Source: Mesostigma viride
Lineage: Eukaryota > Streptophyta > Mesostigmatophyceae > Mesostigmatales > Mesostigmataceae
Direction of reading: 5' to 3'
DNA length: 64,000 nucleotides
NCBI GenBank assembly: GCA_009746045.1
Contig: RPFO01000078.1
Coordinates: 147,438 to 211,437 of the forward strand
Part shown: positions 42,693-51,809 of the stretch, piece by piece
Layout of the letters: each line of letters starts with the position of its first letter
How positions within the stretch are numbered: position 1 is the stretch's first letter
Translations under genes and position numbers: made by a program
Notes under the pieces: model-generated
Seen by the model: the letters and a program-made list of their open reading frames with translations, nothing else
What the model was told of the DNA's origin: nothing
Databases searched by the model: none

Positions 42693-45600
42693 TCAGCGCA
42701 CGGGACAGGCGCCCGAGGGGCAGTCCCCGGCTAGTTTCGCCTCGTCCACGTCGACGTGCACGATGCCCGCGTAGTCCACCGGGGTCAGCTTGTTGCGGTA
42801 CCTCCTCATGACATCCTCGGTGACCACCTCCTGGGGGAGGTAGCTGTACCCCAGGTCCGCTGCGTTCTTGGTGGGGTCGCACCTCAGCAGGAAGGACACG
42901 CCCACGTAGAGGTCCCAGTTCTTCTGGAACCAGTCCAGGATGGCGGGGATCTCGGTGGGATCGTACGACACCGTGCACGAGACGTTCTGGTCGCACCAGT
43001 TGGACATGAGGTTCTTGTAGCGCTCGAGTTGCGCCACGGCGGATTCGGTGTTGACCTCCACCTCCTCGGTGGTGCCGTCCTTCCTCGTGACGGTCTTTTT
43101 GGTGAAGGGGACGCTGGCGTAGGTGACGGGGAAGGTCACCAGGACGGAATCCTGCTCGTAGGGCTTGTCCGCCACCTTGTAGCCGGCGTCCCTGAACCTC
43201 TGCACGAGGGGGTCGTGCTTGGAGTAGGTGATGTTGTTGAGGATGTACCTGCCCATGGGCTTGTGGACGCCCTCCGGGACCTCCCCCCACTCCCTGGTGC
43301 TCATGATCTTGGACAGCGTGCCGCTGGGCTTGATGCAGGTGACGTTCTTGGGCAGGGGCTTCCCGAGACTCTTGGCCATCTCGTAGGCCGCGGAGACGGC
43401 CACGTTCTTCATGCGGCGGTAGTCGTAGTCCTGCAGGTCGGACCTGGCCACGATGCCGGTGAGGCCGACGCCGCACAGGTGCAGGAACTCGTTGTTGAGA
43501 TGCCACGCCTCTTGTAGGATCTCGTCCCTGAGGTCGACGAGCGTCTGGCGGTAGTTCATGCGCGCGGCCAAGACGAGCGCCCTCTCGAGGCCGGACTTGT
43601 TGCCCTCGTGGAAGGCGGCCAGGTTGACCTCGGTCAAATTACAAAACGACTTGTTGGCGAGCAGGATCTCACTGTGCGGAAAAAAAAAGTGCGCAAGTGG
43701 TATACAATGCCCCGACCGCGGAGGAGATCCGGTGCGGGATTGGTCAGGTGCGCCCACCATTCCGTACGCGCGAAAGAATTCGACACTCTCGGACGCGGAG
43801 TGGGACGACGTGCCGCAACCGGTGCGCGTACGGGAGAGGACGTTGCGGGGTGCACTCGAGGAGGAGACCTTAAGCAGCCTGTGCGGCGTATCCCATGTTA
43901 AAAGTGGGTGGGGCCATCATGTTCCATGCGAGCTCTTTTCGTCCTGGCCAAAGGATCCTGTCCACGATAAATAACACGAAGAAAAGGACCACAAGGGACT
44001 GGAAGATTCCTGCATTCGCAAGCGCCCAACGCACCGCCCCCTTGTCCAGCCCGCGCTTTGCCTGATACTTCTTTAACACGCCCCACGTCAACCACGACAG
44101 CGCGGCGATGACTTGCAAAACTAGTATTCTCGTCAGCCAATTAGTGCCGAACAAAGGCAGCATATTAGGCTTGCGCCACATACTCGCCAGCCACGCCACA
44201 AAGGCGATCACCAACACACCTTGCGCAGTGCCTAAAGAAGCCCACACAGCCTTTTTCTGCCTCTGGTTCATGTCTTCCTTCCAAACCGCTCCTGAAAGCC
44301 ACCCGGAGTAGAGGAGCAACTGTATTATAACACCAACCATAAAAATCTGCAGCGTATCTGGCATTGCGTATTTGATATATAAACAAGAAAGATAAAAAAA
44401 GCATTTGTCCGGGAAAGGGAATAGAATGGGAACACAAGGGCCAGCAAGTTTAATGTGACATACCAGCAAGGATTGCAGCCTTTGCACCAGGGGGCGCGGC
44501 GGCGGGCTGCCTCGAGGTTGAACATGCCGGGCTCGGAGCCGCCGGAGTCGAGCATGATGGCGAAGATCTCCTCCAGCTGCTGGCGGGTGGGCTCCTTGGT
44601 GAAGACCAGCGAGTTGTTGGACTGCTGGCGGTGGGCGTGGGCGATCCACCAGTCCTTCTTGGCGGAGGCGAACTCGCGCCACTCGACGTCGCCGTACTCG
44701 AAGAGGGCGATCTCCGCGGACCGGCGACTGCTCAACATGGTCCCCAGGTGGTTCACGATGTCCAGGATGTCCATCTTGGTGAGCAGCTGGTCCGCGCGAC
44801 GGGACATGATGTGGGAGATGGCCAGCATCGCCTTGGAGACGTTGTCGTCGCCGGAGCTCTGCGGGGGTCGAGAAAAATATCGGGGCCAACAGTACATCAT
44901 GAGGTGCACGGCTAAGACTCGCGGGAACCGTCGCTGCCTGAACACGAGCGTCAAAGGGGGGCAGAGGTGTTATGTGCACGGGCGGAGGAGGCATTCGATG
45001 CGGGCCAGACCGACCCGCAAGGATTTCGACGAAAATTACGCAGAAATGGCGAGCAATTTCTCTCCATTCCGCAAGAGCCCTTACGACTTGTTCGAGAAGT
45101 CCGTCTTTGCCCACAACAAGGCCATAGGTAGAGGGGGGCGGAACGTTTTGTTAAGGTGCCTCTGGGGAGAAGCGAAAAAGACCCCAAGGTCGTCTCAACA
45201 TTTACCGACGCGTTAGATGGCAAAACCGACGCGATGTCGCACCTCCACGCGGGCAGGTTAACGTGGCGAAGACCGGAGCGGTCCGCCGAGGATGAAAGGT
45301 TCCTGACCGACCCCTCCACACACCGCCGGAGCAGATACATCCCCTCGCTCCGGGAGCTAGCCATCAACGCCATCCCCGAGGGTCCCGAACAGGACGCGGC
45401 CTGGCACTTAGCGAGCCACGGCGAGTTTCCCGCGGACGAGATGTAGATGGTTGCCACTACTTCCAAGCATCTTCAAATCCTGTCACATCCTTCCGCCACT
45501 TTGCAAACGTAGACAGAACTTCCTGTTCCAACCAATCAACTCAAAAACCACGTGCAGGATGGCAGCAGACACGCCAACTTGTATCAAAATACCAGCGTGG

Positions 45601-51287: not shown

Positions 51288-51809
51288 GGAGACCAGGGCT
51301 ACACAAAAAGGCTGGGAAGTTCGGACAGCCTGCGGAAATCGGATGAATTATTTGAGGCAGTGGGTGCTTTGGATGAGCTCAATGCCTTTATGGGTTTGGC
51401 CATTCAACACTCGCTGCCGGCTGATAACTGCTTTCTACACTACCTCCAAGGTGTTCTTCTGGCAGCTGGCACGTCCGTCGCGGCCAAGAACTCGAATTCT
51501 TGCCGCGACGAAAAGTATAAGTTTTCTGAGGGCCCTGAGGCGGTACAGCGGCTGGAAAACACAATTGACCAGTTGGACGAAAAGTTACCAAAACTTTGCA
51601 ATTTCATTCTACCCGGCGGGAACGGACTGGCAACTTCTCACCTCCACGTTTGCAGGGTGGTGTGCAGAAGAGCTGAGAGGGCGTGTGCGCGGCTGGAATG
51701 GGTGGATCCCAACATCCTGCAATTTTTAAACAGGATGTCAGACTTCTTTTTTGTGCTGGCAAGAGCTAAGGAGGAGTTTCCGGCCGCCATTTACCGCAAA
51801 CATTCGTAA
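51267..51809 (+). CDS. pduO: Cob(I)alamin adenosyltransferase, PduO type
   Basis: 180 aa, a full-length single-domain member. The N-terminal ATP-binding loop is MKIYTKQGDQGYTKRLG, followed by GALDELNAFMGLA, FILPGGNGLATSHLH, VCRRAERACARLEW and LNRMSDFFFVLARAKEE, all hallmark segments of this family in the right order and spacing. The enzyme transfers the adenosyl group of ATP to reduced cobalamin, making coenzyme B12. It lies 4 kb from the B12-dependent reductase, divergent from the primase. I see no riboswitch-like sequence upstream. A cofactor-supply role for the reductase is inferred from the pairing. Confidence 0.93.
   Translation: MKIYTKQGDQGYTKRLGSSDSLRKSDELFEAVGALDELNAFMGLAIQHSLPADNCFLHYLQGVLLAAGTSVAAKNSNSCRDEKYKFSEGPEAVQRLENTIDQLDEKLPKLCNFILPGGNGLATSHLHVCRVVCRRAERACARLEWVDPNILQFLNRMSDFFFVLARAKEEFPAAIYRKHS

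Follow-up and report, generated by a model that had tools for sequence, protein, structure and literature searches.

Adenosylcobalamin-dependent ribonucleotide reductase (RTPR) needs adenosylcobalamin, which cobalamin adenosyltransferase (ATR) makes, and genes for the two enzymes occur together in phages and bacterial plasmids. Here we describe such a pair in a 64,000-nt stretch of the genome of the streptophyte Mesostigma viride (440 Mb in 2243 contigs), namely positions 147438-211437 of contig RPFO01000078.1 (C1724; the whole stretch is called the window below). It is quite probable that the pair is a two-enzyme, B12-based module for deoxynucleoside triphosphate (dNTP) supply carried by an endogenous large-DNA-virus element, and that its RTPR gene is a landing site for introns. 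Like the window, the Nodularia phage vB_NspS-kac68v162 encodes a class II ribonucleotide reductase (RNR) and an ATR of family PF01923 within one virus, about 1 kb apart. Unlike the window, it is a bacteriophage, its ATR is divergent (45.8 bits) and its reductase has an annotated intein rather than introns. Plasmids of Lactobacillaceae (Lactobacillus intestinalis and Limosilactobacillus reuteri; L089, L180) also carry nrdJ with a PduO-type ATR gene 1-2 kb downstream, but these are bacterial plasmid genes, and the RTPR is only 22-25% identical to ours over the part that corresponds to exon 4.

The single components have other close relatives. The RTPR of SIO1-like phages and Zobellviridae (TIGR02505, PHROG 367) resembles the window enzyme in family, length (661 aa in PQ867852), cysteines and exon-4 identity (57-61%). 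The phage genes examined are without introns, some having an intein-like insert, whereas the window gene has three large introns and lies in a eukaryotic genome. Large GT-AG introns that hold endonuclease or other open reading frames (ORFs), as those of the window RTPR do, are described for mirusviruses as spliceosomal homing introns (shintrons) in the accessible part of PMC12768974; as at intron 2 of our gene, different introns can occupy one site in close relatives. Shintrons are found mostly in virion-morphogenesis genes of Mirusviricota, whereas the window has a phage-type RNR beside genes of the AEP_C962R and A22 types. Virus-encoded dNTP supply is also known from Nucleocytoviricota, through a class Ia RNR, but the window enzyme is class II. 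According to the available sections of PMC10598087, all described families of nucleocytoplasmic large DNA viruses (NCLDV) have the aerobic class Ia enzyme. In its available portion, PMC8204020 describes two incomplete RNR ORFs, ambiguous in origin and with no class stated, in a giant-virus locus of Phytophthora parasitica. Our searches of the giant virus and NCLDV literature on RNR, cobalamin and ATR turned up no published RTPR-ATR pair or class II RNR for eukaryotic viruses.

This agrees with the original prediction, which knew of no such pair described for a eukaryotic virus, and it is for a eukaryotic virus only that the pairing is new. As a kind it is not new, because phages and plasmids of Lactobacillaceae carry it too, and novelty among viruses generally was rejected given the Nodularia phage and IMG/VR. 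An alignment query for ATR gave 333 matches in IMG/VR, of which the best 80 were used (a single-sequence scan found none), and 11 of these best 80 ATR-bearing loci also encode an RTPR in the DNA available. On nine viral contigs (L217, L220, L221, L243, L250, L256, L260, L261, L262) the RTPR gene stands about 620-650 bp upstream of the ATR gene as a conserved pair. L186, a viral contig of 430 kb, has one of the ATRs closest to that of the window, near genes for a serpin, a ClpX-like protein and a phosphoribosyl pyrophosphate (PRPP) synthetase. From the reductase side, no ATR was seen in the available DNA around any of 80 RTPR-bearing IMG/VR loci.

The window RTPR gene consists of four exons on the minus strand between 42,693 and 47,097. 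A tblastn search with a phage RTPR gives four collinear minus-strand blocks (phage residues 19-126, 127-221, 220-367 and 349-661; E values 9e-118 to 5e-30), whose overlaps are intron read-through. Exon 1 (46763..47097, minus; 111 codons plus 2 nt) contains the first active-site cysteine (...SCMFNC...) and scores 114.6 bits against positions 13-126 of TIGR02505. It is followed by exon 2 (45784..46069, minus; 69.7 bits, positions 128-230) and by exon 3 (44464..44858, minus; 99.6 bits, positions 231-377), which ends in N-P-C with the thiyl-radical cysteine. Exon 4 (42693..43671, minus; 313.8 bits, positions 379-724) supplies FCNLTE, with the third active-site cysteine, as well as the redox pair DCPSGACPVR at the C-terminus, and matches PHROG 367 at 2.5e-73. 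TIGR02505, an RTPR equivalog of 724 positions, is the sole family matched by each exon, and the exons together tile its positions 13-724. Its cut-off of 340 applies to the whole protein and is reached by no single exon; exon 4 counted with its neighbours in the genome search scores 411.4 bits, and a full-length phage homologue 594.9 bits. The predicted exons sum to 1995 nt including the stop codon, giving 664 aa as against 661 aa in the phage homologue, where the ATG at 47097 is assumed to be the start.

Pfam models give weaker matches: RNR_Alpha reaches 6.9e-05 on the longer ORF of exon 1, below cut-off, and PF21995, the insertion domain of monomeric enzymes, reaches E 1.8e-4 on exon 2 (22.1 against a cut-off of 27; 31.3 for the full-length phage homologue). 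The exon-4 ORF matched only the RTPR structure 1l1l in the PDB (phmmer). When the protein is aligned with the Lactobacillus enzyme, five cysteines match, as do N and E of the NPCxE motif; we take these cysteines to have the active-site and C-terminal roles known from that enzyme. The assignment to the monomeric adenosylcobalamin-dependent class that had been made from the sequence is borne out by the tiling of TIGR02505; the three catalytic cysteines named with it are present, although three is an understatement. A class I identity was rejected because all four exons match only RTPR. The G+C content at third codon positions (GC3) is 0.94 in both exons 1 and 4.

The ATR gene (51267..51809, plus) is a single exon encoding a 180-aa protein of the PduO/MMAB type. 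It scores above the cut-offs of both PF01923 (1.7e-44; 152.3 bits against 24) and TIGR00636 (129.3 bits against a curated 108.45). The motif columns TKxGDxG, RRxER and NRxSD, which we take to be functional in this enzyme, are conserved in the window protein (alignment of seven rows, window included), and its top identity to bacterial or IMG/VR rows in the trees is 47%. A complete PduO-type ATR about 4 kb from the reductase, within a block of viral genes, is what had been proposed, and score and neighbours agree.

Copies of both genes are spread over the host genome. TIGR02505 gives at least 98 matches, which represent 52 loci on 51 contigs. Five PF02867 loci and one more bring the RTPR total to at least 58 loci on 57 contigs, a lower bound because scoring with TIGR02505 covered 52 of 319 initial candidates. 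With PF02867 alone, strong RNR matches fall on C1846 and C2011 and weak ones on 12 contigs, one on each, and the genome search with this model missed the window RTPR. The match on C2011 (L263, L267) lies on an AT-rich stretch (GC 0.35, other measured loci having 0.52-0.66) that possibly comes from another virus or a contaminant. In the lineage of the window, the C1939 copy has four exons encoding 96-100% identical protein. A second lineage, sampled on eight contigs, has full-length exon matches 66-77% identical to the window, with shorter pieces at 52-89%, and 12 further copies are full-length, intronless and in one frame (666-672 bits). For ATR, PF01923 gives 82 matches on 66 contigs, of which 17, window included, fall in the window's score class (152.0-152.4 bits, 184-aa frame). 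Six others of this class were compared with the window as DNA: five are 99.3-99.7% identical over 3.5 kb, and the sixth is 100% identical over 2.4 kb and then diverges.

An ATR gene lies within 25 kb at 19 of the 58 RTPR loci, window included, and the same linkage seen from the other side is an RTPR within 25 kb on 19 of the 66 ATR contigs. The distances fall at 8.4-9.4 kb (n=8), 13.4-18.6 kb (n=10) and 21.4 kb (n=1). The linked contigs cover all four viral ATR subfamilies of the tree described below, by score class or direct membership, where linked copies from a single family do not count as separate events. Ten of the 19 linked ATRs match profile positions 1-170 in one piece and one frame.

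Phylogenetic analysis of exon 4 places the window RTPR, on a long branch, inside a clade (support 100/100) made up of SIO1/Zobellviridae-type phages together with viral contigs from IMG/VR, with bacteriophage class II enzymes and not with class I. With genomic copies added, the window lineage, the second lineage and two intronless copies form one clade (100/100) inside the phage clade (100/99); the exact sister of this genomic clade is weakly supported. All RTPR trees used exon 4, with IMG/VR rows thinned to 35 of 80 in the first tree and fewer later. The best phage and IMG/VR rows are 57-61% identical to exon 4, as against 43% or less for plasmid-borne bacterial RTPRs and 22-25% for lactobacilli over the same part.

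The ATR tree comprises 51 rows, among them 20 genomic ones, 16 of 80 GTDB loci and 14 of 80 IMG/VR loci, with human MMAB as the sole named eukaryotic ATR. Human MMAB and the genomic rows all fall into one clade (100/97), within which the ATR of C1591 groups with human MMAB (97/89). This copy is probably the host's own, because it lies at 2.57 Mb on its contig at GC 0.52. The other 19 rows, window included, are sister to human MMAB plus C1591 rather than inside that branch, at a node (93/89) that is just under the strong mark of the tool and carries a long-branch warning; that each of these 19 lies in viral DNA is an assumption. In two trees built without other genomic copies, the window ATR was unplaced. 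The placements that the original prediction had named as refuting it appeared neither for the reductase nor for the ATR. Taken as part of the whole reading, and on the sequence comparisons, it is quite likely that the RTPR descends from a bacteriophage-type gene and that the ATR is of the eukaryotic MMAB/PduO type. The suggestion that the pair would let the virus use host B12 even where the host makes little coenzyme is weakened, since the genome also contains a grouping partner of human MMAB, the MMAB-type ATR of C1591, as well as PF02867 RNR genes on C1846 and C2011.

All three RTPR introns have GT-AG ends and pyrimidine-rich acceptors on the minus strand: intron 1 (46070..46762, 693 nt, GTGAGT...TTTTTTTTCTGCACAG), intron 2 (44859..45783, 925 nt, GTGAGT...CCCCCGCAG) and intron 3 (43672..44463, 792 nt, GTATGT...TTTTTTTTTCCGCACAG). 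The second lineage is without introns 1 and 3, and its read-through at these sites reproduces the predicted joins 1 and 3 exactly, including the unusual NPC-C-EILL (NPCCEILL). An intron at site 2 alone is present there, so this position is common to both lineages; the interiors are unrelated between copies. Across the genome, TIGR02505 matches break at profile positions 127-128, 230-233 and 376-382, in varied combinations. In three phage homologues an intein-like insert, annotated as an intein in one of them, follows NP; intron 3 is placed 5 nt downstream of this insertion site.

Each intron contains ORFs. Intron 1 holds two antisense ORFs with GC3 of 0.88 and 0.92, one of 135 aa with one predicted membrane helix (46096..46503, plus; GC1-3 0.48/0.48/0.88) and a cysteine-rich one of 74 aa (CTAxTK..RC; 46531..46755, plus) with a weak match to PHROG 4842 'HNH endonuclease' (E 0.0041). 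In intron 2, a sense ORF of 77 aa with two helices predicted from hydropathy (45483..45716, minus) has a counterpart in the C178 copy with 96% identity over 74 aa, and an antisense ORF of 105 aa found by motif scan (44899..45216, plus; CTAxT..RC, cysteine-rich; GC3 0.70) resembles the HNH-like ORF of intron 1 by motif only. The sense ORF of intron 3 (43870..44364, minus; 164 aa), with four helices predicted from hydropathy and with codon periodicity, recurs in the C1939 copy at 83% identity over 143 aa. In shuffles, the best codon periodicity was matched in 0, 0 and 1 of 1000 for introns 1, 2 and 3, and the longest ORF length in 66, 114 and 15 of 1000; length is weak evidence here, and periodicity the better test. 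Blast of the introns against the window gave no repeat family and only two short marginal matches. Small CTAxT..RC cysteine-rich peptides lie at 44905 (plus) and 46537 (plus) in the RTPR introns and at 59925 (minus) outside them, and may, on their motif, be related to the N-terminal part of HNH endonucleases.

Intron turnover is seen in the C1939 copy, which apart from intron 2 matches the window at 97-99% identity, up to within three bases of the splice sites. Its own intron 2 (917 nt, GC 0.47) holds an antisense ORF (L312 2816-3193, plus) that matches PHROG endonuclease VII (E 7.6e-7) and has no Pfam match, and its intron 3 has a gap of about 130 nt relative to the window. In the second lineage, intron 2 is about 633 nt long with an antisense ORF of 200 aa. 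Judged from these DNA comparisons, the RTPR gene is an intron landing site, and by analogy with mirusviruses its introns fit gene-carrying, possibly homing, spliceosomal introns. This anatomy, which the original prediction did not describe, is perhaps the most unusual feature of the locus.

The identity and completeness of the two genes, the conserved cysteines, the viral neighbours, the linkage across ATR subfamilies, the ancestry and the intron turnover are all directly seen in the DNA. From the known biochemistry, the ATR would make adenosylcobalamin from reduced host cobalamin (cob(I)alamin) and ATP. The RTPR would use it to generate a thiyl radical and reduce ribonucleotides with no need for oxygen or a small subunit. 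If both proteins are active, the ATR could serve the RTPR during infection. The host spliceosome would remove the RTPR introns, which likely spread by homing, as proposed for mirusvirus shintrons. Eukaryotic MMAB-type ATR is often mitochondrial. Because the genome also appears to hold its own MMAB-type ATR, a viral supply of coenzyme at the site of viral dNTP synthesis is a plausible, if speculative, advantage. A bolder version, which we hold only tentatively, is that a giant-virus lineage uses B12-based dNTP synthesis in place of class I RNR, combining a phage reductase with a eukaryotic coenzyme enzyme, and that its RTPR is a shintron hot spot, beside the phage intein site, where introns are swapped between near-identical copies.

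Vitamin B12 is, to our knowledge, a scarce nutrient made only by prokaryotes. If the proposed module is real, giant-virus infection of some protists would be tied to this vitamin, an enzyme that supports replication would have been transferred from bacteriophages to a eukaryotic virus, and whether the class of a viral RNR tracks the oxygen and B12 supply of the host would become testable. Intron turnover in dozens of copies within one genome also makes this a useful setting for work on the movement of spliceosomal introns that carry genes; mobile introns of this kind are reported so far for mirusviruses, in the accessible part of PMC12768974.

A number of observations weigh against a two-enzyme module in a viral element. 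The genes for RTPR and ATR lie on opposite strands with 4.2 kb between them, so any co-regulation is hypothetical, and the GC3 of ATR is 0.58 as against 0.74-0.94 in neighbouring genes measured in frame. Co-occurrence of the two genes, checked here within the host genome, holds at the 19 linked loci and fails at many others. At five of the 58 RTPR loci the ATR on the same contig is at 93 kb or more, and 34 have none on their contig, many of these contigs being short. C667 and C1610 extend to the expected place and have no ATR there, and all 12 full-length intronless RTPR copies lack one within 25 kb. Among the 19 linked ATRs, nine are incomplete or fragmented (four end at profile positions 144-146 of 171, five are in pieces), and several linked RTPRs have stops in a piece. 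Such a pattern could mean that RTPR and ATR are unrelated cargo of one viral genome, a phage RTPR on the one hand and an ATR for general host or viral use of B12 (methionine, methylmalonyl) on the other. Other genes do lie between them, the two differ in ancestry as well as GC3, and 39 of the 58 RTPR loci are without ATR within 25 kb. Yet the product of the ATR, adenosylcobalamin, is what the RTPR requires, and the pairing recurs in phages (the 11 of the best 80 ATR loci and the Nodularia phage), in two Lactobacillaceae plasmids and in four ATR subfamilies of the host genome. We regard unrelated cargo as unlikely.

The viral nature and the integrity of the genes can also be questioned. Capsid protein, PolB, packaging ATPase and VLTF3 were not found among the window ORFs scanned with Pfam, the host genome also has an MMAB-type ATR and PF02867 RNRs (C1846, C2011), and the RTPR trees left out eukaryotic class II RNRs (Phytophthora, Dictyostelium, Euglena). 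The two genes might be host nuclear genes beside, or copied into, viral DNA. Spliceosomal-type introns in the RTPR and the MMAB type of the ATR would suit this origin, some fungi and oomycetes have class II RNR and ATR (PMC8085122, in the sections available), and the 12 intronless full-length RTPR copies may not be viral, five of these stretches (L314-L318, on C2045, C1535, C1683, C1899 and C2151) having GC 0.52-0.58. The abundance of copies, the viral genes on both sides of RTPR and ATR, the viral-like GC3 of RTPR exons 1 and 4 and the separate branch of the likely host ATR nevertheless make it improbable. The RTPR moreover nests among phage sequences and is remote from lactobacilli, next to which PMC3019208, in its accessible part, puts most eukaryotic monomeric RNRs. 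A host nuclear RTPR was rejected as first choice on the phage clade and the viral flanks. Alternatively, the locus could be a decaying relic whose introns are host invasions after endogenization and whose genes no longer function. Erosion is the usual reading of introns in genes of giant endogenous viral elements (PMC12455990 and PMC12768974, in the parts available), the helicase frame of the window looks broken, and other copies are damaged: exon 4 is in two frames in three of the eight second-lineage contigs (C1932, C2180, C115), the C178 copy of the window lineage ends abruptly after exons 1-2, and a 4.7-kb stretch of C51 has no RTPR where one is expected. All window exons, in contrast, are open with key residues conserved, the position of intron 2 is common to lineages whose full-length exon matches are 66-77% identical, and the intron ORFs have coding-like periodicity, which makes decay rather unlikely in our view. 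An assembly artefact or bacterial or phage contamination, for which it speaks that the nearest sequenced RTPRs outside the host genome are those of phages, is barely credible given the spliceosomal-type introns and retroelement flank in the window and the presence of copies on contigs of several megabases, C887 and C667 among them; bacterial contamination was rejected on the introns and the many genomic copies.

The window most likely holds one copy of a multi-copy large-DNA-virus element, the virus most likely belonging to Nucleocytoviricota. Its left flank, to about 26-28 kb, is rich in retroelements (integrase zinc-binding domain, reverse transcriptase/ribonuclease H, DUF4218), and GC ranges over 0.44-0.60 in the first 28 kb, as against 0.56-0.67 from there to 64 kb. 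Viral families identified with Pfam in the right part are AEP_C962R with Herpes_UL52, Pox_A22 with YqaJ, DUF7197, DUF5832 and a superfamily 2 (SF2) helicase. Between RTPR and ATR lies the DUF7197 gene (48345..48905, minus; PF23827, 2.7e-24), and the ATR is adjoined by a viral primase with AEP_C962R and Herpes_UL52 domains (49704..51287, minus). A Pox_A22-type resolvase with a YqaJ recombinase domain follows at 55520..57214 (plus). The SF2 helicase (39122..41628, minus; PF04851/PF00270, Helicase_C below cut-off) occupies two overlapping frames. Its coding signal, followed over 39125-41637, switches frame near 40.2 kb, while RTPR and ATR are open, and by sequence the gene looks broken or mis-assembled. 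Single-sequence scans found no IMG/VR relative of the resolvase, helicase, DUF7197 protein or primase.

The viral block also contains a tRNA-Ile(TAT) gene (60100-60173, minus). Two genes on opposite strands (54238-55098, plus, and 61382-62401, minus) look like paralogues by eye and have no Pfam match above cut-off, and two tandem paralogues at 34849-36225 and 36229-37365 (minus) are basic and repeat-rich (MARGRATASNAKKKSK...). In the host-side flank, at 11995-12196 and 14727-15850, there are a perfect satellite with the 7-bp unit TGAAGAA and long arrays of CACG and TCCC, with strong GC skew.

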